In this document: positions 2,014 through 36,141 of the stretch, one piece after another
How positions within the stretch are numbered: the stretch's first letter is position 1
Layout: every line of letters begins with the position of its first letter
NCBI RefSeq assembly: GCF_019969845.1
Contig: NZ_JAHXYR010000008.1
Span: 1-64,000, forward strand
DNA: 64,000 bases
Origin: Sphingobacterium sp. GVS05A
GTDB lineage: Bacteria > Bacteroidota > Bacteroidia > Sphingobacteriales > Sphingobacteriaceae
Direction: 5' to 3'
Notes under the pieces: generated by a model
Told to the model about the DNA's origin: nothing
Databases searched by the model: none
Seen by the model: the letters and a program-made list of their open reading frames with translations, nothing else
Position numbers and translations under genes: made by a program

Positions 2014-3198
2014 ATGATAGATTATAACGAACTCTTAAAACAGGTAGAAGAATTCTCTAACGCTTATATTATACAGAATATCTCCTCGTGTCATTGTTTT
2101 CACAACAGTATACATACACATTCAGTAGTACAAGCTGCAGATGAGATTTCCTCGTTTTATAAGTTAAATGACGAAGATCATTTTATAGTGATCAGTGCAG
2201 CCTATTTTCATGATTTAGGTTATGTAAAATCTGACAATGCTATTGGCCATGAAAAAAGAAGTGTAGAGATCGCTTTAGACTTTCTAAGGGATAAAGGGGT
2301 ACCGGAGGAGGTAAAAGAAAAAATCAAAGGTTGTATCCTCGCCACCAGAATGCCCCAAGATCCAAACAATCTATTGGAACAAATTCTTTGTGACGCTGAC
2401 TTGTTTCATTTTGGAGGAGAGGACTTTGAAAACAGAAATAAACTGATGAAGACCGAAGCAGAGGCTGTATTAGGTAAAGAAATTGATAAGGATGTTTGGC
2501 GTGCTGGCACTATAAAACTTTTGTCAAGTCATCATTACCATACAGATTATGCCCAACAAAAGCTCAACGCAAAGAAAGAAGAGAACTTAAAAGAACTGGA
2601 GCGAAAACAGGAAAAATCCAAGGACAAGAAAAAAGAAGACAAGAAAGAAACAAAAAAAGAGAAAGATAAAAGTGCCAAACCTGAACGTGGTATAGAAACA
2701 ATGTTCCGGATAACATCGTCCAACAACCAACGTTTGAGTGATATGGCTGACAATAAAGCTAATATTTTATTGACCGTTAACTCCATTATTCTATCTGTCG
2801 TTATTGCGGTATTATTTAGGAAATTGGATAGTAACGAACATTTGATCTTGCCAACAATTATTCTCACGGTAATTGTTGTGGCCACTATGGTCATGGCTAT
2901 ACTTTCAACTATACCCAAAATACCTTCTGGAAAATTCTCAAAACAGGAAATTGAAAATAAGACCGTCAACCTATTATTTTTCGGTAATTTCTATAAAATG
3001 AAACTGGATGACTATAATGAAGGAATGCAAAAAGTAATGATCGACTCCGAATTTCTATACGGCATGCTAACAAAAGACGTTTATTCCCAAGGAGTTGTAT
3101 TGGGTAGAAAATACAAATTACTGCGTTATGCTTATGGCATCTTCATGTTTGGCCTGGTTATCTCTGTTATTTCGTTTGTTATTGCAACGCTATTGTAA
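2014..3198 (+). CDS. HD-domain protein fused to a PycTM (DUF5706) membrane effector domain
   Basis: This 394-residue protein joins an N-terminal HD-superfamily phosphohydrolase fold to a C-terminal membrane module. The metal-ligand pattern is visible: His34/His36, the His66-Asp67 doublet (YFHDLGY), His79 and Asp127/Asp129. Residues about 185-228 form a highly charged Lys/Glu linker. Residues about 230-394 match the PycTM type (Pfam DUF5706) found in Pycsar effectors, including the motif NQRLSDMADNKANILL and three hydrophobic segments near 250-270, 280-300 and 372-394. In Pycsar defence such effectors respond to cCMP or cUMP and damage the membrane. No uridylate/cytidylate cyclase lies nearby, so a housekeeping nucleotide-linked role is just as possible. 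It opens an operon and ppk1 follows 36 nt later. Confidence 0.85.
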   Translation: MIDYNELLKQVEEFSNAYIIQNISSCHCFHNSIHTHSVVQAADEISSFYKLNDEDHFIVISAAYFHDLGYVKSDNAIGHEKRSVEIALDFLRDKGVPEEVKEKIKGCILATRMPQDPNNLLEQILCDADLFHFGGEDFENRNKLMKTEAEAVLGKEIDKDVWRAGTIKLLSSHHYHTDYAQQKLNAKKEENLKELERKQEKSKDKKKEDKKETKKEKDKSAKPERGIETMFRITSSNNQRLSDMADNKANILLTVNSIILSVVIAVLFRKLDSNEHLILPTIILTVIVVATMVMAILSTIPKIPSGKFSKQEIENKTVNLLFFGNFYKMKLDDYNEGMQKVMIDSEFLYGMLTKDVYSQGVVLGRKYKLLRYAYGIFMFGLVISVISFVIATLL

Positions 3199-6156: not shown

Positions 6157-8766
6157 ATGCAACGGGTCTTACCATTCTTTTTACTTTTTCTCGCTACACA
6201 AGCTTATTCTCAGCAGAAGAATAAGTCGAATTCAACAATTGACACGCACAAAGATAAATCGCTGACTCAAGCCGTGATTAAAGACAGTACTATTGTTGTA
6301 GCAAATGCAAAGTATGGGAAGGCGAGTGGATTTAAGAAGTCATTTCTTGGAGAAAATTATCGTAGAGAATGGGCTGCCGAGACCGCCTTACCCATATTAC
6401 AGCTCTCTAGATTATACGGTGGCCTGACCCCTGTTAAACAGGGAGGAGGCATGCAATCCATTTCACTCAGGTTAACAGACCCAACAGGTAGAGAATGGGC
6501 GCTGCGATCAGTAAATAAACGAACAGAGTCTTTGATTCCAGAGGAATTGCATGGCACCTTTGTACAGGACGTGCTGGACGATGCGACGAGCGCACAACAT
6601 CCTTATTCCGCATTGATGATTCCTGCGCTGGCTAATGCGGTGAAGGTTTCACATGCACATCCCGTTATAGGTGTCGTTGCGCCGGATACAATCCTTGGCG
6701 AGTACGCTCCTTTATTCGAAAACACTATTGCCCTATTGGAAGAACGAGAGCCAATGGGCGACTCCGATAATAGTCCAAAAGCCGTGCGCAAGCTTCAAGA
6801 GGACAACGATGATGATTTCAAACCCAAGGCATACCTGAGGGCGCGTATGCTAGATGTAATTGTAAGCGACTGGGATCGTCATGAAGATCAATGGCGTTGG
6901 TATAATGAAAATCAAGATACTGATGATAAAGACAAGGATTATATTCCAATTCCTCGGGATCGAGATCAGGCCTTGCGTGTTACACAGGGATTTTTGATGA
7001 AAGATATTTATCAACGGTTTGTCAACCCCGTTATGCAGGGTTTTACAACAGGCATTCCAAATATCAGATACTCCCTTTTCAAATCCAGATTTTTAAATGC
7101 ACATCCAAGCAATCAACTCTCCCACAAGGAGTGGACAAAAGAAGTAAATCAGTTTGTCTCCAGTTTGACAGATTCGGTACTCTGGCAATCTGTCAAAAGC
7201 TTACCACAATCATCCATCGCTATTCGGGGAGAACAGATTTTCCGCACACTTCAAAGCAGACGCGATGCTTTGCCGGCTGCAATGGAAGAATATTATCGTT
7301 TTATCAATAATATTGTCGATATCCATTTCAGTGATAAGAACGAAAAGGTGGAGATTGCAAGTACCCAAGATGAGGGCTTAAAAATCATTGTGTCCAAAAT
7401 CAACAAAGATGGAAAGGTGACTAAAACCCTAATGGACAAGACTTATGAAAAGAACTTAACAAAAGAAATCCGATTATACCTTTCTGAGGGTCAGGACTCG
7501 GTGTCCATAAATAATGTAAATTCGCCCATAAAACTGCGCATTATTGGCGATAGTTTGCCAAAGACCTATGTAATCAACAACAGTCACTCAAAAATAAAGC
7601 TCTATGAGAATACGGGCAACTCCACTTTTTTGGGAGAAAAAGGTCGAATCAGACTACATCAAGGTAAGGACAGCTTAAATACGCAGTTCGTTCCCGTCAA
7701 TCTATACAATTCCTGGCTCCCCTTGGTAACAGCGGGTTATAATGCTGATGATGGTTTTTCTCTCGGGCTTGGTGCCGCATATACGCATCAACGGGGTTTT
7801 AGAAAAACTCCTTTTACCTATAAACAACAGATTACTGTGGCAGCGGCATTCCGAACAGGGGCCTATAAAATTCATTATCGTGGCGAATGGGAAGATGTAA
7901 TAGGTAATGCCGACTTTGTCCTCGATGCATTAGCAAAAGCCCCCGACAATACGCAGAACTTTTTTGGTGTTGGTAACAATTCCCTATTTTTAAAAGATCA
8001 GTATGGCGCGAAATACTACCGTAGCAGGTTCAATATTTTCAATGTCAACCCACTACTGCGGTGGCACCCTTCGTCTACGCTGAATTATGCTATTGGTCCC
8101 CATATCCAGTTCTATCACCTGGATCCAATTGAAAATCAGAATCGTTTTATCTTAAATCCGCAAGCGCTCCATTCTTATGATAGTGTTTCCATTACCAATG
8201 ACAAAGCTTTCGTTGGACTAAATGCTTTTCTGACGCAAGATACACGTAACCGCAAGATCAATCCAAGTAAAGGATTATTTATCAAGGCAGCCCTACATTC
8301 TTTTTTGGGCTTAAATAAATATTCCAGAAATTCAGGCCAGCTAAGCGCAGAAATGACAGGCTATTTTAGTGCCCTAAATGAAGGCATCGTATTCGCAAAT
8401 AGAGTAGGCGGGGGAACGGTGGTTGGCAATCCTACATTCTATCAATATCTATTTCTAGGAGGTCATGAGAATCTTCGTGGTTTTCGTCAATATAGATTTG
8501 CTGGCGAGCAAATGGTATACAACAACCTCGAAGCCCGCGTCAAGATTCATGAGATAAAAAGCTACGTTCTACCCGGAGAACTAGGGATCATGGGGATGTA
8601 TGATATCGGAAAAGTGTGGGCAAAAGATCACAACAGTAAGACAGTCCACCAAGGATTCGGCGGAGGACTTTATTATATCATCGCCAATGCATTACCTCTT
8701 CACTTTGTGATGGCCAAATCTAATGAAGGTTGGTATCCCTATTTTAGTACCGGCTTCCGTTTCTAA
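6157..8766 (+). CDS. BamA/TamA-like outer-membrane barrel with kinase-like N-terminal module
   Basis: The 869-residue product has a signal peptide (cut after about residue 18, TQAYSQ). The C-terminal part, roughly 520-869, reads as a 16-strand Omp85-type barrel and ends in Phe (STGFRF). The N-terminal part, roughly 60-400, does not look like POTRA repeats. It carries DWDRHEDQW (Asp238-Trp246) and, about 24 residues on, PRDRDQAL (Asp268, Asp270). This spacing and composition recall the catalytic and metal-binding loops of HipA, Fam20C and CotH atypical kinases. The kinase reading is inference. Its place directly after ppk1 and the propeller lipoprotein suggests a shared envelope phosphate or polyphosphate role. 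Confidence 0.75.
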   Translation: MQRVLPFFLLFLATQAYSQQKNKSNSTIDTHKDKSLTQAVIKDSTIVVANAKYGKASGFKKSFLGENYRREWAAETALPILQLSRLYGGLTPVKQGGGMQSISLRLTDPTGREWALRSVNKRTESLIPEELHGTFVQDVLDDATSAQHPYSALMIPALANAVKVSHAHPVIGVVAPDTILGEYAPLFENTIALLEEREPMGDSDNSPKAVRKLQEDNDDDFKPKAYLRARMLDVIVSDWDRHEDQWRWYNENQDTDDKDKDYIPIPRDRDQALRVTQGFLMKDIYQRFVNPVMQGFTTGIPNIRYSLFKSRFLNAHPSNQLSHKEWTKEVNQFVSSLTDSVLWQSVKSLPQSSIAIRGEQIFRTLQSRRDALPAAMEEYYRFINNIVDIHFSDKNEKVEIASTQDEGLKIIVSKINKDGKVTKTLMDKTYEKNLTKEIRLYLSEGQDSVSINNVNSPIKLRIIGDSLPKTYVINNSHSKIKLYENTGNSTFLGEKGRIRLHQGKDSLNTQFVPVNLYNSWLPLVTAGYNADDGFSLGLGAAYTHQRGFRKTPFTYKQQITVAAAFRTGAYKIHYRGEWEDVIGNADFVLDALAKAPDNTQNFFGVGNNSLFLKDQYGAKYYRSRFNIFNVNPLLRWHPSSTLNYAIGPHIQFYHLDPIENQNRFILNPQALHSYDSVSITNDKAFVGLNAFLTQDTRNRKINPSKGLFIKAALHSFLGLNKYSRNSGQLSAEMTGYFSALNEGIVFANRVGGGTVVGNPTFYQYLFLGGHENLRGFRQYRFAGEQMVYNNLEARVKIHEIKSYVLPGELGIMGMYDIGKVWAKDHNSKTVHQGFGGGLYYIIANALPLHFVMAKSNEGWYPYFSTGFRF

Positions 8767-30323: not shown

Positions 30324-30749
30324 TTTACTAAAATTTCATCATTTCATATTGTACTTTTCATTCGCGCAGAGACTTTCAAGCTAATTATAACAATTACAGC
30401 GCACCGTTTTACGAAGCCCATATCCCGAAAAACCCAATTCCATCGAAGATCTGCCATGGAAGATGTACTCCTTGTTGATAGTAATCCACTTCAAGAGCTA
30501 AGGTAGCTAGTAGCCCTTCCAAAAATTCCTTACTCAACGGTCAAAGACAGAAATATCTATAACAATGTTTACAAAAACATTATTATAGCGACCATAGAGC
30601 TTTTTTAAGCCTCTTTTCGCATATATCTTCTTTGAAAGATACTCTTTTTGTAAAAGGCAGATCATAAAGCTGTTTATTTGATAAACCTATAAACAGCTTT
30701 GCTTTTTATTGATTAGTTTTGTGTTTCAACGATAAATTAGAGCATTTCG
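30324..30749. other. Intergenic region between divergent signalling genes
   Basis: This 426-nt stretch has no ORF of substance. It holds a stable hairpin at 30666-30700, and a plus-strand -7 element TAGTTTTG at 30714-30721, 28 nt before the GTG of the next gene. No -33 TTTG at the right distance was found. A smaller 6-bp hairpin lies near 30627-30645. Confidence 0.5.
30666..30700 (+). terminator. Hairpin upstream of the GNAT-like gene (terminator or operator)
   Basis: AAAGCTGTTTAT (30666-30677) is perfectly complementary to ATAAACAGCTTT (30689-30700), with an 11-nt loop, and is followed by GCTTTTTATT. It has terminator shape on the plus strand, but no plus-strand gene ends nearby. It overlaps the spot where a promoter for the following operon would sit, so it could also be an operator. 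Confidence 0.5.
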
Positions 30750-31559
30750 GTGGCATTATTATTCAACGAGGGACGTCCGGTAGTTAGACTAAGAGCATTT
30801 CGTGCTATCGACGATCCCAAAACCTGCGAACGTTTTATAGAAGGGCATGCCCATGTCTTGACAGCAATAGGTGTCAAGAAAGTTACTTCATCCAAAAATG
30901 ACTGGATGTATAATCCGGCATCATTCGTCCTTATTGTAGAATCACTTGACGGTGAGAAGGTGTATGGAGGAGTTCGGATACATGCTGCTGGAGGGAGCGA
31001 GCCTCTACCGATAGAACAGGCTACAGGTGCTATGGATGCACGTATCTACGATTTAGTATACGAATACGCTCTTCATGGTACCGGAGAAGGTTGTGGTCTA
31101 TGGAACTCCCGTGAGATCGCAGGTTATGGCATCGGCAGTATCTTCCTCACAAGGGCGGGAGCGGCAATCAGTACACAGATCGGGATCAAATCACTGTTTG
31201 CACTATGCGCTCCATATACGGTAAAACTAGCTGAGAGTGTCGGCTATCGGATAGATACCAGCGTTGGTAACAATGGTACTTTCTACTATCCCAAATTGGA
31301 TTTATTGGCAACTGTTATGATCATGAGAAATCTGGATACGCTAACCGAAGCCGATCAAGAAAACAAGGAAGCGATATTTTCGCTCCGAAACAATTCCAAT
31401 ATTGTCCGGATAGAAACCTTGCGAAATAAAGAGATTGAAATTCACTATCAAATAGATATTCCTAATCTAGATCGTTGGGATCTTGACGAAGTCATAAAAA
31501 ATTTGCAACACACATCGGCAGATCTCAAAGTAGATCATCGTAATCTAAATATTTTGTAA
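30750..31559 (+). CDS. GNAT-fold putative acyltransferase, autoinducer-synthase-like
   Basis: The 269-residue protein resembles GNAT-fold N-acyl amino acid or acyl-homoserine lactone synthases rather than ordinary acetyltransferases. The pattern is SFVLIVE then KVYGGVRIH (strand pair), LWNSREIAGYGIGSIFLTRA (a GxGIG-type acyl-carrier or CoA loop preceded by the W-S-R-E element), and ALCAPYTVKLAESVGY. Substrates cannot be assigned. It begins with GTG. Its stop overlaps the ATG of the methyltransferase gene by 1 nt, so the two are tightly coupled. It opens a putative four-gene signalling operon with two sensory proteins downstream. Confidence 0.6.
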   Translation: MALLFNEGRPVVRLRAFRAIDDPKTCERFIEGHAHVLTAIGVKKVTSSKNDWMYNPASFVLIVESLDGEKVYGGVRIHAAGGSEPLPIEQATGAMDARIYDLVYEYALHGTGEGCGLWNSREIAGYGIGSIFLTRAGAAISTQIGIKSLFALCAPYTVKLAESVGYRIDTSVGNNGTFYYPKLDLLATVMIMRNLDTLTEADQENKEAIFSLRNNSNIVRIETLRNKEIEIHYQIDIPNLDRWDLDEVIKNLQHTSADLKVDHRNLNIL

Positions 31560-32323
31560 TGGATACTAAACACTATGGTGCCAGTTATTTACAAGACACC
31601 GGAGACTTTCTCAAGCAACTAAAAATACATTCTTATAGCCCTTTCAACATAATCAAAGAAGGGCGTGTTGCCGATCTTGGCTGCGGTACAGGAATGGACG
31701 CTGTTAACCTTGCAAATGTGTTAGGGGGCAATGTACAAGTCATTGGCGTTGACCATGATGCTGTGTTGATCGATCATGCCAAGTCAGGCAGCAAGGGCGT
31801 CAGTAACGTCAATTTTGTACAGGGTGAGGTATATCAACTCGGTTTCGAGAATGAGAGCGTTTCAGGCGTACGGATGGAACGTCTTGTTCAGCATCTGATC
31901 GCTCCACAAAACATGTTTCAGGAGGTTTATCGCGTATTGCGCAAAAATCAACCATTGGTCATTGTGGAGACAATTTGGAATAGCCTGACTTTTTATACGC
32001 AACATGTGGATATAGAGGCTAAAATATGTCATTACTTGACAGAAGATAAAGTCAATAACGGTTGGGCAGGCAACAAGCTGACAGCTGATCTCCTTGCAAA
32101 TGGATTTCAACAGGTTCAACTGCAAACATTCAATATGGTAACACGCTCTAGGGAAGAAGCCAACCGTTATTTATTTCTGGACAAAATACTGTTGGAAATG
32201 TTTGAAAAGGGCAAATTAAATCAAGTCGAATACGACAATTTTCAACAAACACTGGACCAATTGGATGAATCAGGCTGCTTTTTAGTCTCTATGAATTTAG
32301 TAATCGCTCAAGCAAAAAAATAG
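31559..32323 (+). CDS. Class I SAM-dependent methyltransferase
   Basis: The 254-residue enzyme has the Rossmann-like methyltransferase core: motif I VADLGCGTGMDAVNLA, the acidic VDHDA end of strand 2 and FQEVYRVLRKNQPLVIVE near motif IV/V. It is closest in style to the UbiE/COQ5-type Methyltransf_11/25 group that works on small molecules. Coupled translation with the GNAT-like gene suggests that it methylates the product or precursor of that enzyme. Only 10 nt separate it from the kinase gene. Confidence 0.88.
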   Translation: MDTKHYGASYLQDTGDFLKQLKIHSYSPFNIIKEGRVADLGCGTGMDAVNLANVLGGNVQVIGVDHDAVLIDHAKSGSKGVSNVNFVQGEVYQLGFENESVSGVRMERLVQHLIAPQNMFQEVYRVLRKNQPLVIVETIWNSLTFYTQHVDIEAKICHYLTEDKVNNGWAGNKLTADLLANGFQQVQLQTFNMVTRSREEANRYLFLDKILLEMFEKGKLNQVEYDNFQQTLDQLDESGCFLVSMNLVIAQAKK

Positions 32324-32333
32324 TATCCTAAAG

Positions 32334-34484
32334 ATGAAGTGCTGGTTTTTCCTGATCTGTATTTTTATTCTCGCATACCTGCCATCACGCGGCCAGCTTA
32401 CTATCGATCAATCTGGGCAACGGTTGCTAATTGGTCATATGCTCGAGCGCTATACAGGCCCCGAAACCACAGATTTTTCAACAGTTTCATCATCATCGGC
32501 CTTTCAACCGCTGAACAGTGAAGTGCCTAACCTAGGGACATCGCCCAATGCCATTTGGTTGCGCTTACCTGTTAAAAATAATACCAAACAAGATTTAGAT
32601 CTTCTTCTGGAAATTGCCTATCCATTGCTGGATGAGATTGAATTATATAGTCCTAATGAAAATGGCACATATCAATCCATTAAACTGGGAGAACATCAGA
32701 ATTTTTCGATTAGAAAATATAAAGTTCCCAATTATGTATTTGACATTCATCTGCACTGTCACTCGGAAAAGACCTTTTTTCTCCGCATTAAAAGTATCGA
32801 GCAGATTATATTACCGATCTACTTAAGTAGCGAACGTAAATTCATGGCGCAGATGAATAGCGACAGCCTCCTCAGTGGTATTTATATTGGTATCGTATTC
32901 ATTATGGCGATATACAATCTTTTTCTGTTTTTTTCTGTTCGGGACAAGGGCTACCTCTATTATGTCCTATATGTTGTGTGTGCCGGAATCACCCAAATGG
33001 GTATCAAAGGCTATAGTTTTCAATATTTATGGCCGAACTGGCCTTATTTTGCCACCAAAGGTCCGATTATTTTCGGCTGTTTGTCTGGACTTAGCGCCCT
33101 TCTTTTCGCAGGTTCATTTCTCCAATTAGAGAAGAATGCTCCTCGATCAAAACGGATAATCACAATCTTTATCGTATTATTTGCCCTTGGTACCATCCTC
33201 GCATTGTTCAATCTGACACAGCCCGCATTTTTTGTTATGCAAGTGACCACTGGTATAGGCTCATTATTTGTCCTTTATCTATCCTACCGCATCATGATCA
33301 GCGGGTATAGCCCGGCGAAATACTTTGTCTATGGCTGGACAGTCTTATTATTGGGATCTGTAGTATTTTTATTAAAAGACTATGGGATATTAGACTACAA
33401 CAACTTTACGAGCAATTCAGTACAAATTGCCTCAGTTATCGAAATGGCTTTACTTTCATTTGGTCTGGCATACAGTATCAATATACTTAAACAGGAAAAA
33501 GAAGAGTCTCAAAAACGAGAATTGGCTATCTCTCTGGAAAATGAGCAACTTATCCGTGAGCAGAATACGATGTTAGAACAAAAGGTAGATGAACGGACAC
33601 ATGAACTAAAAGAATCCAATGCATCGCTGCAAACAACATTGGCACATCTGAAAGAAGCTCAGTCACAGCTTGTCGAAGCCGAAAAAATGGCTTCTTTAGG
33701 GCAATTGACTGCAGGAGTAGCCCATGAAATCAATAACCCTATCAACTTTGTCACTTCAAATGTCGCCCCACTAAAGCGCGACATCAAGATGATCTGGGAA
33801 ACACTGGACGAAGTCGAGCGTATTGCATTTACTACGGGCCTTTCCGATAGTGAAAAACAGTCACAGATCAAAAAATTTAAAGATGATTTGGATATTGGGT
33901 ACCTGAAGACCGAAGTCGATTATCTATTGAAAGGAATGGACGAAGGAGCTCATCGAACAGCAGAAATTGTAAAAAGTTTACGTATCTTTTCTCGTGTCGA
34001 CGAAGACACCTTAAAATTTGCGGATATCAATGAAGGTCTAACGTCCACCATGATAATACTTAACAGCTTAATAAACAATTCGATCGAAGTAGAAAAACAT
34101 CTTGGAAATCTACCAAAGATCGAATGTCATGCCGGAAAATTGAATCAGGTATTTCTTAATATTATCACTAACGCGGTGTATGCCATAGGCAAAAAATTCG
34201 GTGGTAACACTGGTGGGAAACTAAGTATTGAAACTGGGCTTACAGCTGATCAATCTGCTATTTTTGTTAAAATAGCAGACAACGGTATCGGCATCCCTGA
34301 AAACATTCGAGACCGAATTTTTGAACCCTTTTTCACGACGAAAGATGTAGGTGAAGGAACAGGACTAGGCATGTCTATTGCCTATAATACCATTGCAAAA
34401 CATCATGGTAAGATTATTGTAGAATCAGAAATAGGAGAGGGAACAGCTTTTACATTACACATTCCCGTGCAACAAACAAATTGA
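32334..34484 (+). CDS. 7TMR-DISM sensor histidine kinase
   Basis: The 716-residue kinase has a signal peptide, a periplasmic 7TMR-DISMED2 domain (about 30-165, carbohydrate-binding-like jelly roll) and seven membrane helices (about 180-385). These lead to a coiled coil, HisKA with His464 in GVAHEINNPINF, and a HATPase_c domain (NIITNAVYAI, DNGIGIPENI, GEGTGLGMSI). DISM receptors sense extracellular small molecules. It is encoded 10 nt after the methyltransferase, so the sensor and the putative synthesis genes share a transcript. Confidence 0.93.
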   Translation: MKCWFFLICIFILAYLPSRGQLTIDQSGQRLLIGHMLERYTGPETTDFSTVSSSSAFQPLNSEVPNLGTSPNAIWLRLPVKNNTKQDLDLLLEIAYPLLDEIELYSPNENGTYQSIKLGEHQNFSIRKYKVPNYVFDIHLHCHSEKTFFLRIKSIEQIILPIYLSSERKFMAQMNSDSLLSGIYIGIVFIMAIYNLFLFFSVRDKGYLYYVLYVVCAGITQMGIKGYSFQYLWPNWPYFATKGPIIFGCLSGLSALLFAGSFLQLEKNAPRSKRIITIFIVLFALGTILALFNLTQPAFFVMQVTTGIGSLFVLYLSYRIMISGYSPAKYFVYGWTVLLLGSVVFLLKDYGILDYNNFTSNSVQIASVIEMALLSFGLAYSINILKQEKEESQKRELAISLENEQLIREQNTMLEQKVDERTHELKESNASLQTTLAHLKEAQSQLVEAEKMASLGQLTAGVAHEINNPINFVTSNVAPLKRDIKMIWETLDEVERIAFTTGLSDSEKQSQIKKFKDDLDIGYLKTEVDYLLKGMDEGAHRTAEIVKSLRIFSRVDEDTLKFADINEGLTSTMIILNSLINNSIEVEKHLGNLPKIECHAGKLNQVFLNIITNAVYAIGKKFGGNTGGKLSIETGLTADQSAIFVKIADNGIGIPENIRDRIFEPFFTTKDVGEGTGLGMSIAYNTIAKHHGKIIVESEIGEGTAFTLHIPVQQTN

Positions 34485-34564
34485 TGCCAAAGTAAACCCA
34501 ATGAATTCGATAAATTATCATTAATTTCGTTCATTTTTGGAAGATAAACCAGATTATAAAAATT

Positions 34565-35650
34565 ATGCAGACGGAGATTGAAATATTATATATTGATGAT
34601 GAAGCAAATAACTTGGTTGGTTTTAAAGCAAATTTTAGATACGACTATGTCATTCATACCGCATCAAATACCACCGAAGCCGAAAAAATACTTCTTTCCA
34701 ACCCGGATATCCGTGTGATCTTTTGTGATCAGCGTATGCCAGGGGAATTGGGAATAGATTTTCTCCACCGCATCAAAAAAGACTATCCTAAGCCAATCCG
34801 TATTCTATTGACCGCCTATGCAGACATGGATACGGTTATAGATGCGATCAATAAAGGGCATATATTTCGGTTCGTTCGCAAACCCTGGATGGGTGAAGAA
34901 ATTATCTCTGCGATCGAAGAGGCGAATAAATTTTATGTCGCAAATTCACTATTGGAGACAAAGAACCAAGAATTGCAGAAAGCATACGATGAGCTCGATA
35001 AGTTTGCCTATAGCGTGAGTCATGATTTACGAGATCCCTTAACTGGTGTACTCTCTGCGGTAAAACTAGGATTAGAATTTAACAATATAGACCGCATCCA
35101 CGAATTGCTTACCTTGATGGATAGTTCATTGGTCAGCCTGGACGCCTACATCGATAGTCTACGGGACTATTACCTCCTGCGAAGAGGAGAACTTATGTTA
35201 TCTAAGATTGATTTTGATGAGCTTTTTGGCAATGTTAGACAATTCTATAAAATGTACACACAAAATAAGGATGTAACATTTGATATCCATGTGGAGCAGA
35301 AAGAGCCATTTCATTGTGATAAAGCCATACTGGAATTAATCTTGCACAACCTGCTATCCAATGCTTTTAAATATCAGCAAAAAGAGCAGACGAATCCATT
35401 TGTCAAATTATCTGTTGATGTATCTGACAAACATGCTACTATTGTCGTGAGTGATAATGGTATTGGAATTTCTCCCGAACATATCGGTGATATTTTCAAG
35501 TTATTCTTTAGAGGTAGTGATCAGGCCAAAGGCATGGGATTTGGCTTATATAATGTACAGAACGCCCTACTTAAGCTTCAGGGGTCAATCGATGTGCAAT
35601 CGCCACCAAATATGGGCACAACATTTACGGTTAGGATACCGAGCAAATAA
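34565..35650 (+). CDS. Response regulator-histidine kinase hybrid (REC-HisKA-HATPase)
   Basis: The 361-residue cytosolic protein starts with REC (phospho-acceptor Asp55 in FCDQRMPGELG; Lys in VRKPW). A HisKA domain follows with His153 in YSVSHDLRDPL, then HATPase_c (LHNLLSNAFKY, VSDNGIGIS, GMGFGLYNV). Receiving a phosphate at REC and acting as a kinase, it is a mid-relay element. The REC domain is closely similar to that of the convergent regulator at 35677. It lies 80 nt after the DISM kinase. Confidence 0.92.
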   Translation: MQTEIEILYIDDEANNLVGFKANFRYDYVIHTASNTTEAEKILLSNPDIRVIFCDQRMPGELGIDFLHRIKKDYPKPIRILLTAYADMDTVIDAINKGHIFRFVRKPWMGEEIISAIEEANKFYVANSLLETKNQELQKAYDELDKFAYSVSHDLRDPLTGVLSAVKLGLEFNNIDRIHELLTLMDSSLVSLDAYIDSLRDYYLLRRGELMLSKIDFDELFGNVRQFYKMYTQNKDVTFDIHVEQKEPFHCDKAILELILHNLLSNAFKYQQKEQTNPFVKLSVDVSDKHATIVVSDNGIGISPEHIGDIFKLFFRGSDQAKGMGFGLYNVQNALLKLQGSIDVQSPPNMGTTFTVRIPSK

Positions 35651-35655
35651 GATCT

Positions 35656-35686
35656 GCTATCCTAAAAAATCAGCTTTTAGGATAGC
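35656..35686. terminator. Bidirectional terminator between convergent signalling genes
   Basis: GCTATCCTAAAA (35656-35667) pairs perfectly with TTTTAGGATAGC (35675-35686) around a 7-nt loop. The right arm includes the stop codon of the minus-strand regulator. Confidence 0.8.
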
Positions 35687-36141
35687 AACTTCTGACGTAG
35701 CATAAATTCCAATTGATCATTAGAGGCTTCCAGCTGCGCATTCGTTTCAATTATTTTTTGCCGTTCAGTATACACTTCATAAGCACGTTGAATTGTTTGA
35801 TCGAGCTCTTTTTCACTCCAGGGTTTATTGAGGTAATGAAAGATCTTTCCTTTATTGACGGCCTCGACCACTGCTGCCATATCAGCATACCCTGTTAAAA
35901 GGATGCGCATTGGAGCTGCATCAATTTTTATGATTTCTTCCAAAAACTCCACGCCTGTCATTTCAGGCATTCGCTGGTCAGTGATAATGATATCAATAGG
36001 GTTGTTTTTGACAAGTTCTATTGCTTCGGCGCCACTTATAGCCGTAAACACCTCATATTTAAACCGGAATGTCGCTTTAAAGGAAAATAGATTATTCTCC
36101 TCATCGTCAACATACAATATCGAAATCTTCTTATTTTTCAT
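35677..36141 (-). CDS. Single-domain response regulator (REC plus coiled tail)
   Basis: The 154-residue protein is a REC domain with Asp55 in IITDQRMPEMTG and Lys in YLNKPWSEKEL, followed by a helical tail (YTERQKIIETNAQLEASNDQ) and no output domain. It belongs to the RpfG-like REC group by its YVDDEENNL start and is paralogous to the REC of the hybrid at 34565. It may take phosphate from the DISM kinase or the hybrid. Confidence 0.9.
   Translation of the reverse strand: MKNKKISILYVDDEENNLFSFKATFRFKYEVFTAISGAEAIELVKNNPIDIIITDQRMPEMTGVEFLEEIIKIDAAPMRILLTGYADMAAVVEAVNKGKIFHYLNKPWSEKELDQTIQRAYEVYTERQKIIETNAQLEASNDQLEFMLRQKLLS

Follow-up and report, generated by a model that had tools for sequence, protein, structure and literature searches.

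A predicted synthesis-and-sensing module of Sphingobacterium with a candidate exchangeable enzyme-receptor cassette

We analyzed a 64,000-nt stretch (hereafter, the window) of the 6.29-Mb genome of the soil bacterium Sphingobacterium sp. GVS05A and focused on five of its genes, A to E, which encode a predicted acyltransferase, a class I S-adenosylmethionine (SAM) methyltransferase, a 7TMR-DISM histidine kinase, and two receiver-domain proteins. In related loci, the position of the methyltransferase gene B is a slot that can hold other enzymes, and the enzyme in this slot varies together with the input half of the kinase C. We consider it fairly likely that the locus represents a conserved Bacteroidota synthesis-and-sensing module, in which the signal is a tailored N-acyl amino acid, the organization resembles PhcBSRQ, and pherotypes are exchanged in the manner of ComQXP. 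A sequence-only reading of this DNA had already suggested that synthesis and sensing are combined here, an interpretation that is supported and strengthened by the comparison with relatives.

In the proposed mechanism, A would join an acyl group to an amino acid, as suggested by its fold, remote homology, and neighbours, and the slot enzyme would then finish the molecule. B would do so by methylation, most likely of the free carboxylate, so that the product would be an N-acyl amino acid methyl ester. The corresponding step in relatives may be closure of an oxazolone ring by a ThiF cyclase or ester formation by a membrane enzyme of the ICMT type. The covariation described below points to the ectodomain and seven-transmembrane (7TM) half of C as the probable site of product sensing. 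The kinase half would hand phosphate to D and E as in PhcS-PhcR-PhcQ, whose architecture the module shares. Different cassettes would thereby define mutually deaf signalling types (pherotypes), like those of ComQXP in Bacillus.

Conservation of the module and its variable slot

A tblastn survey returned 72 related loci (56 genome loci and 16 more distant ones). The order A-slot-C-D was found repeatedly, not only in the genus and its family but also in other families of the same class. A was accompanied by C in 71 of the 72, with the exception lying at a contig end, almost always by D, and usually by E. Where E adjoins the module, as in most loci, it either follows D in convergent orientation or stands divergently ahead of the biosynthesis genes. 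The slot held exactly one of three non-homologous kinds of enzyme in each locus: a methyltransferase in 30, an Rv1355c-family ThiF, alone or with a nitroreductase domain (NF005901), in 40, and an ICMT-family membrane methyltransferase (PF04140, 1.5e-19) in two. A methyltransferase near an Rv1355c gene on a Mycobacterium plasmid was left uncounted because unrelated genes intervene.

We also compared 61 Sphingobacterium genomes, for which we give counts rather than a Fisher value because their kinship means that they are not independent. A, C, and D were jointly present in 41 genomes and jointly absent in 20; they are gained and lost together, so that the sequence-only reading was right to treat these neighbours as related. 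Orthologs of the sensor half of C and of the whole of D were found in 41/41 A-positive and 0/20 A-negative genomes, and the A-negative genome G020 contained only a distant paralog of C (91 bits). The A-positive genomes divided into 27 with the methyltransferase and 14 with the Rv1355c-family ThiF, none having both, and the A-negative genomes had neither.

The slot ThiF proteins scored 472 bits (cut-off 476) and 796-801 bits against NF005901. Adenylating-E1 residues are near-invariant in 39 of these proteins (D154, D156, N162, R165, K177, and D224 in L066 numbering) and align with those of the carboxylate-cyclising tRNA dehydratase TcdA. Based on these scores and residues, we rejected the possibility that the slot ThiF is an unrelated E1 enzyme.

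Gene D shows some variation in placement and domain content. In genome G021 (locus L098), it is retained but lies ~35 kb from C, which suggests that it is needed although unlinked. A methyltransferase-type module from another family (L112, 7038-13433) had no D in the fetched stretch, and a PAS-SpoIIE phosphatase gene lies ~1.6 kb beyond. In loci L109, L111, and L115, the receiver and kinase of D are separated by a PAS domain, and two of these D variants have HisKA_3 in place of HisKA.

Gene C as a mosaic

Identities between loci were computed segment by segment (A, ectodomain, 7TM, kinase half, D, and E). The methyltransferase-type locus of S. paucimobilis, L071, was highly similar to its ThiF-type congeners in A (82%), the kinase half (78%), D (74%), and E (82%); in the sensor, identity was 22% for the ectodomain and 31% for the 7TM. 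Compared with L112, which is of its own slot type, L071 showed similar identity throughout (A 44%, kinase 46%, 7TM 48%). For the closest cross-type pair, L071 and L065, the values were 87% for A, 91% for the kinase, and 92% for D, vs 18% for the ectodomain and 33% for the 7TM, with identity rising stepwise near residue 385 of C. This behavior was general: 307 different-slot pairs with kinase identity of 70-92% had 7TM identities of 28-39%, and the mean for 448 same-slot pairs was 66%.

The same boundaries appeared at the DNA level. L071 and L068 were 92% identical over 4.8 kb upstream and 86% identical through A, until homology ended ~30 codons before the end of A; there was none through the slot gene, and it returned inside C (the cross-type break spans 6720-8637). 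The alignment of two ThiF-type species was unbroken. For all 32 methyltransferase and ICMT sequences, the best single breakpoint in C relative to the nearest other-type kinase fell at residues 330-389, where identity steps from ~25% to ~75%. The C-terminal tail of A also tracks the slot, with identities of 54% vs 27% at equal core identity.

A second arrangement was found in L104, L105, and L106, three loci of one genus with the order ThiF-nitroreductase-A-C-D. Between L104 and the other two, A (44-46% identity) and the sensor half have been exchanged together, and the ThiF/nitroreductase, the kinase half, D (80%), and E (87%) have stayed alike. This suggests that the biosynthesis gene adjoining the receptor, whichever it is, goes with the input half.

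Phylogenetic trees were consistent with coupled exchange. The sensor-half tree required two changes of slot type, the minimum for three types, and placed the methyltransferase-type sensors in one clade (support 99), vs nine changes in the kinase-half tree of the same proteins. In approximately unbiased (AU) tests, a single methyltransferase clade was rejected for the kinase half (p = 7e-6), the A core (2e-7), and D (2e-60). With kinase identity held constant, slot-enzyme identity predicted sensor identity (partial r = 0.94 for the methyltransferase and 0.49 for ThiF), and 0/2000 permutations reached the observed slot-sensor partial correlation. The conflicting topologies in the AU tests and the identity step at the boundary led us to reject rapid sensor evolution, with no exchange, as the only cause.

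The slot enzyme and the input half therefore vary together against a conserved kinase half, as in ComQXP. From this observed covariation we infer that the slot enzyme and the sensor half of C form a co-exchanged specificity cassette. Since only the input half is inherited with the slot enzyme, it would be the part of C that reads the product.

Predicted product and competing explanations

To characterize A, we modelled it with AlphaFold2 from a 24-sequence alignment, which gave a GNAT fold with a predicted local distance difference test (pLDDT) score of 87 and a predicted template modelling (pTM) score of 0.85. The sequence-only reading had likened A to N-acyl amino acid or autoinducer synthases, and the top solved folds were indeed FeeM (2g0b) and BjaI (5w8; Foldseek, VIA-align), with FeeM first in Foldseek (5.7e-7) and a Z of 16.0 for BjaI/FeeM. 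As the identity of A to these folds is only ~12%, the resemblance is one of fold and not of family. For the N-acyltransferase TyzA, too, FeeM and BjaI have been reported as the closest solved structures (PMC10404671). Among the flanking genes examined, Pfam identified LytTR, CAAX protease, and two-component proteins; there was no adjacent LuxR, and A had no Pfam Autoind_synth match, so that a LuxI-type N-acyl homoserine lactone system is not indicated. PDB sequence searches with A gave chance hits only.

Profile comparison pointed to a possible remote relationship with oxazolone biosynthesis. A profile of diverse A proteins matched Rv1355c-linked Rhodococcus/Nocardia proteins over 169 collinear columns (score 38.2, probability 61%), compared with scores of 17.8 for the best of 60 column-shuffled decoys and 13.0 for the reversed control. 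On a Rhodococcus qingshengii plasmid (L121, 3824-8148), an Rv1355c-family gene lies beside an A-like protein and a GGDEF gene, an arrangement repeated on several Rhodococcus plasmids; these are oxazolone-type loci adjoining cyclic di-GMP (c-di-GMP) genes on mobile DNA. Because the trzAS neighbourhood has been described with the same Rv1355c and GGDEF genes (PMC12856293), the Rhodococcus A-like protein is probably a TrzA-type acyltransferase. A itself was not found on any plasmid in PLSDB. An A-like domain in the N-terminal part of NF011425 (a ThiF/nitroreductase model) was unsupported, as this model matches only ordinary ThiF/MoeB-type genes in the window's genome. Fold and remote homology together support the view that A is not an ordinary acetyltransferase.

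The enzymes that share the slot provide clues to the chemistry of the product. ICMT enzymes add the methyl group to a carboxylate, and TrzS, from the same family as the slot ThiF, converts N-acyl tryptophan to an oxazolone via ATP-dependent activation of the carboxylate. As one enzyme activates the carboxylate and the other esterifies it, the carboxylate is the simplest common target of the slot. We therefore tentatively propose, with confidence just short of balanced, that the product in the window is an N-acyl amino acid methyl ester. The sequence-only reading had ventured a methylated acyl-amino compound; the oxazolone-family cyclase or ICMT in the same slot fits this suggestion and would make it more concrete. 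For relatives in which the slot ThiF lacks a nitroreductase domain, the oxazolone would be expected to be saturated, or a desaturase to be encoded at another site in the genome. Oxazolones are destroyed by acid and by methanol, and methanol also gives rise to artefactual methyl esters (PMC12856293).

Alternatively, B could methylate a side chain, nitrogen, or hydroxyl of the product, or even a protein. B is UbiE-like, its best Foldseek hits include C-, N-, and O-methyltransferases, and tyrosine is C- or O-methylated in stieleriacines, alongside an N-acyl synthase and a ThiF. Nonetheless, the same slot is held in relatives by enzymes that act on a carboxylate, and we regard methylation elsewhere as unlikely.

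Signalling between cells may also be the wrong frame, as C could monitor an intracellular or membrane N-acyl amino acid derivative (a membrane lipid, antibiotic, or stress lipid) and set its production. In agreement with such feedback control, tryptazolones are more abundant inside cells, oxazolones have been linked to stress physiology, and N-acyl tyrosines are reported to be antimicrobial (PMC12856293). However, it is in pheromone systems (PhcBS, ComQXP) that a tailoring enzyme and the input half of its receptor diversify in a coupled way, and D and E lack DNA-binding domains, like the quorum-sensing proteins PhcR and PhcQ. We find feedback control quite unlikely.

Least convincing, and in our estimation improbable, is the explanation that the slot gene and the input half co-move only as physical neighbours, with C sensing something unrelated such as envelope state, a glycan, or an ion. 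7TMR-DISM kinases such as LadS and RetS do sense other cues, cross-type pairs share no DNA homology between the flanks, so that the block moves as a unit, and ectodomains diverge within one slot type too. Yet the pairing persists across families, as in L112, where the 7TM groups with the methyltransferase type even though A is 44% identical. Other parts of the module do move, including the side on which E lies, D in G021, and ThiF, which is sometimes found before A. The exchanged block in L104 vs L105/L106 again unites a biosynthesis gene with the sensor half, and C is absent from every genome that lacks A.

Several points nevertheless weigh against a signalling module with a tailored N-acyl amino acid as its signal. 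Its product, ligand binding, and phosphotransfer are all predictions. B lies next to the sensor half, and neither shows homology across types, such that homologous recombination in the flanks could move both without functional coupling. Neither A nor its relatives had a Pfam or NCBIfam match above cut-off; as no curated acyltransferase model matches, we say that A may work like an N-acyl amino acid synthase, not that it is a member of that family. The link from A to TrzA depends on a presumed homolog and not on TrzA itself. AlphaFold2 predicted B at pLDDT 92.5, but its Foldseek fold is that of a generic class I methyltransferase, which does not distinguish carboxyl from N-, O-, or C-methylation. 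The ThiF of L065-L081 and other ThiF-type Sphingobacterium loci lacks the nitroreductase domain of known oxazolone pathways. No DNA-binding regulator, including a LysR gene, is conserved beside the module. Finally, with an 80-nt gap between C and D and with E on the opposite strand, a single transcript is a presumption.

Locus layout, described systems, and significance

The features of the locus are listed in Table 1. The sequence-only reading had placed four genes, and its details were accurate: the TAA stop codon of A and the ATG of B overlap by 1 nt, C follows B after 10 nt, and D is a receiver-kinase hybrid. It missed the fifth partner, E. In C, Pfam detected 7TMR-DISMED2 (1.7e-31), 7TM (3.7e-51), and HisKA/HATPase_c (3.7e-23) domains in one chain. 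A begins with GTG, which is retained in most relatives. Given its 80-nt distance from C, D is less tightly coupled than A-B-C. The hairpin between the convergent genes D and E is a probable shared terminator.

Table 1. Coordinates of the module and associated features in the window
Feature	Position	Strand	Description
TAGTTTTG	30714..30721	+	TAnnTTTG match (Bacteroidota -7 element), 28 nt upstream of A
Gene A	30750..31559	+	GNAT protein (269 aa), predicted to be like N-acyl amino acid synthases
Inferred exchangeable specificity cassette	31461..33500	+	Last ~30 codons of A, whole B, sensor half of C to ~residue 389
Gene B (slot gene)	31559..32323	+	Class I SAM methyltransferase, 254 aa; Pfam Methyltransf_25, 4.8e-16
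Gene C	32334..34484	+	7TMR-DISM histidine kinase, 716 aa, predicted receptor
Input half of C	32391..33488	+	Ectodomain + 7TM, residues 20-385; tracks slot enzyme
Kinase half of C	33531..34481	+	Residues 400-716; tracks species, as do A and D
Gene D	34565..35650	+	Receiver + HisKA + HATPase (Pfam), 361 aa, without DNA-binding domain
Hairpin between D and E	35654..35688	.	Terminator scan; fold -17.7 kcal/mol, z -5.75
Gene E	35677..36141	-	Single receiver-domain protein, 154 aa; Pfam Response_reg 2e-21

The intergenic stretch 5' of A (30324-30749, 426 nt) is well conserved only around the TAnnTTTG element, in species of both slot types. Across 29 Sphingobacterium/Parapedobacter loci, also of both types, conservation upstream of A peaks in ttttattgattAgtTTtgt; the alignment showed this conserved -7-like element, and a repeated operator was not found. 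The match to TAGTTTTG by itself is no better than chance, and TANNTTTG alone carries little weight because it occurs 93 times in the window vs 70 expected. Elsewhere in the window, the protein encoded at positions 2014-3198 (+) combines HD and PycTM (Pycsar effector) domains, and its gene adjoins that of a polyphosphate kinase.

The nearest described system is PhcBSRQ, from another phylum, which produces and senses methyl 3-hydroxy-fatty-acid esters in Ralstonia solanacearum; we compared it by domain content against its description only. PhcBSRQ went unmentioned in the sequence-only reading. Both systems combine a methyltransferase, a membrane kinase, and a receiver-kinase plus a lone receiver, both without DNA-binding domains (PMC8578825). 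In Ralstonia, the grouping of PhcB and PhcS reflects signal type, and that of PhcR and PhcQ reflects phylotype. Here, by contrast, the methyltransferase gene comes after that of a GNAT acyltransferase, a cyclase can occupy the slot, and gene A suggests an N-acyl amino acid instead of a methyl 3-hydroxy fatty acid as the signal. The proteins also differ in size: PhcB has 464-468 aa vs 254 in B, and the phcQ product, encoded within the operon, has 336-337 aa vs 154 in E. The PhcS sensor must be much shorter than the 7TMR-DISM half of C, since its phosphorylated histidine is residue 230.

The trzAS, tyzACB, and oxz oxazolone pathways resemble the relatives of the module, which encode an acyltransferase and an Rv1355c-family ThiF, with or without a nitroreductase (NF005901, up to 801 bits); A matches an Rv1355c-linked protein by profile. 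The window's whole genome, unlike the 14 ThiF-bearing Sphingobacterium relatives, has no Rv1355c-family gene and carries the methyltransferase instead. For those pathways, c-di-GMP genes nearby were noted but no dedicated receptor was described, and the authors leave the role of the compounds open, with signalling only proposed (PMC12856293).

ComQXPA of Bacillus shares with the module a variable signal-modifying enzyme and a variable N-terminal membrane half of the receptor kinase, next to a conserved kinase half. It differs in having a peptide signal and a DNA-binding response regulator, vs a predicted small molecule and no DNA-binding output here, and the modifying enzymes of the module are non-homologous between types. 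A precursor-peptide gene between enzyme and receptor, a ComQXP trait, does not occur at the window locus, where the A/B overlap and the short B/C gap leave no room for one. The predicted product class of A and B corresponds to N-acyl amino acid methyl esters (NAMEs), a class of known compounds for which no synthase genes had been identified. We thus classify the module as a variant within small-molecule signalling by receptor kinases and do not assign it to the PhcBSRQ, oxazolone, or ComQXP families. Literature searches, with subscription journals and preprints outside their scope, found neither this gene combination nor a receptor for such compounds described, in line with the sequence-only reading, which knew of no Bacteroidota system of this composition.

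To our knowledge, Bacteroidota have few well-described systems dedicated to cell-cell signalling for which both the signal and the receptor are known, and the module supplies candidates for a receptor and for an enzyme pair. We are evenly divided on the broader view that this is a widespread small-molecule pheromone system of Bacteroidota, in which a conserved chassis (acyltransferase, kinase half, and receivers) would be re-addressed by cassettes of an input half and a finishing enzyme, be it a cyclase, a soluble methyltransferase, or a membrane carboxyl-methyltransferase. The natural mosaics lead to a prediction: exchanging the input halves between the kinases of two species should exchange which extract is answered. 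If true, the module would provide the first known receptor for acyl-oxazolones and N-acyl amino acid esters, and a first example of a single system whose alternative pherotypes are set by tailoring enzymes of unrelated chemistry. Different species would then speak different chemical dialects of one signalling language.

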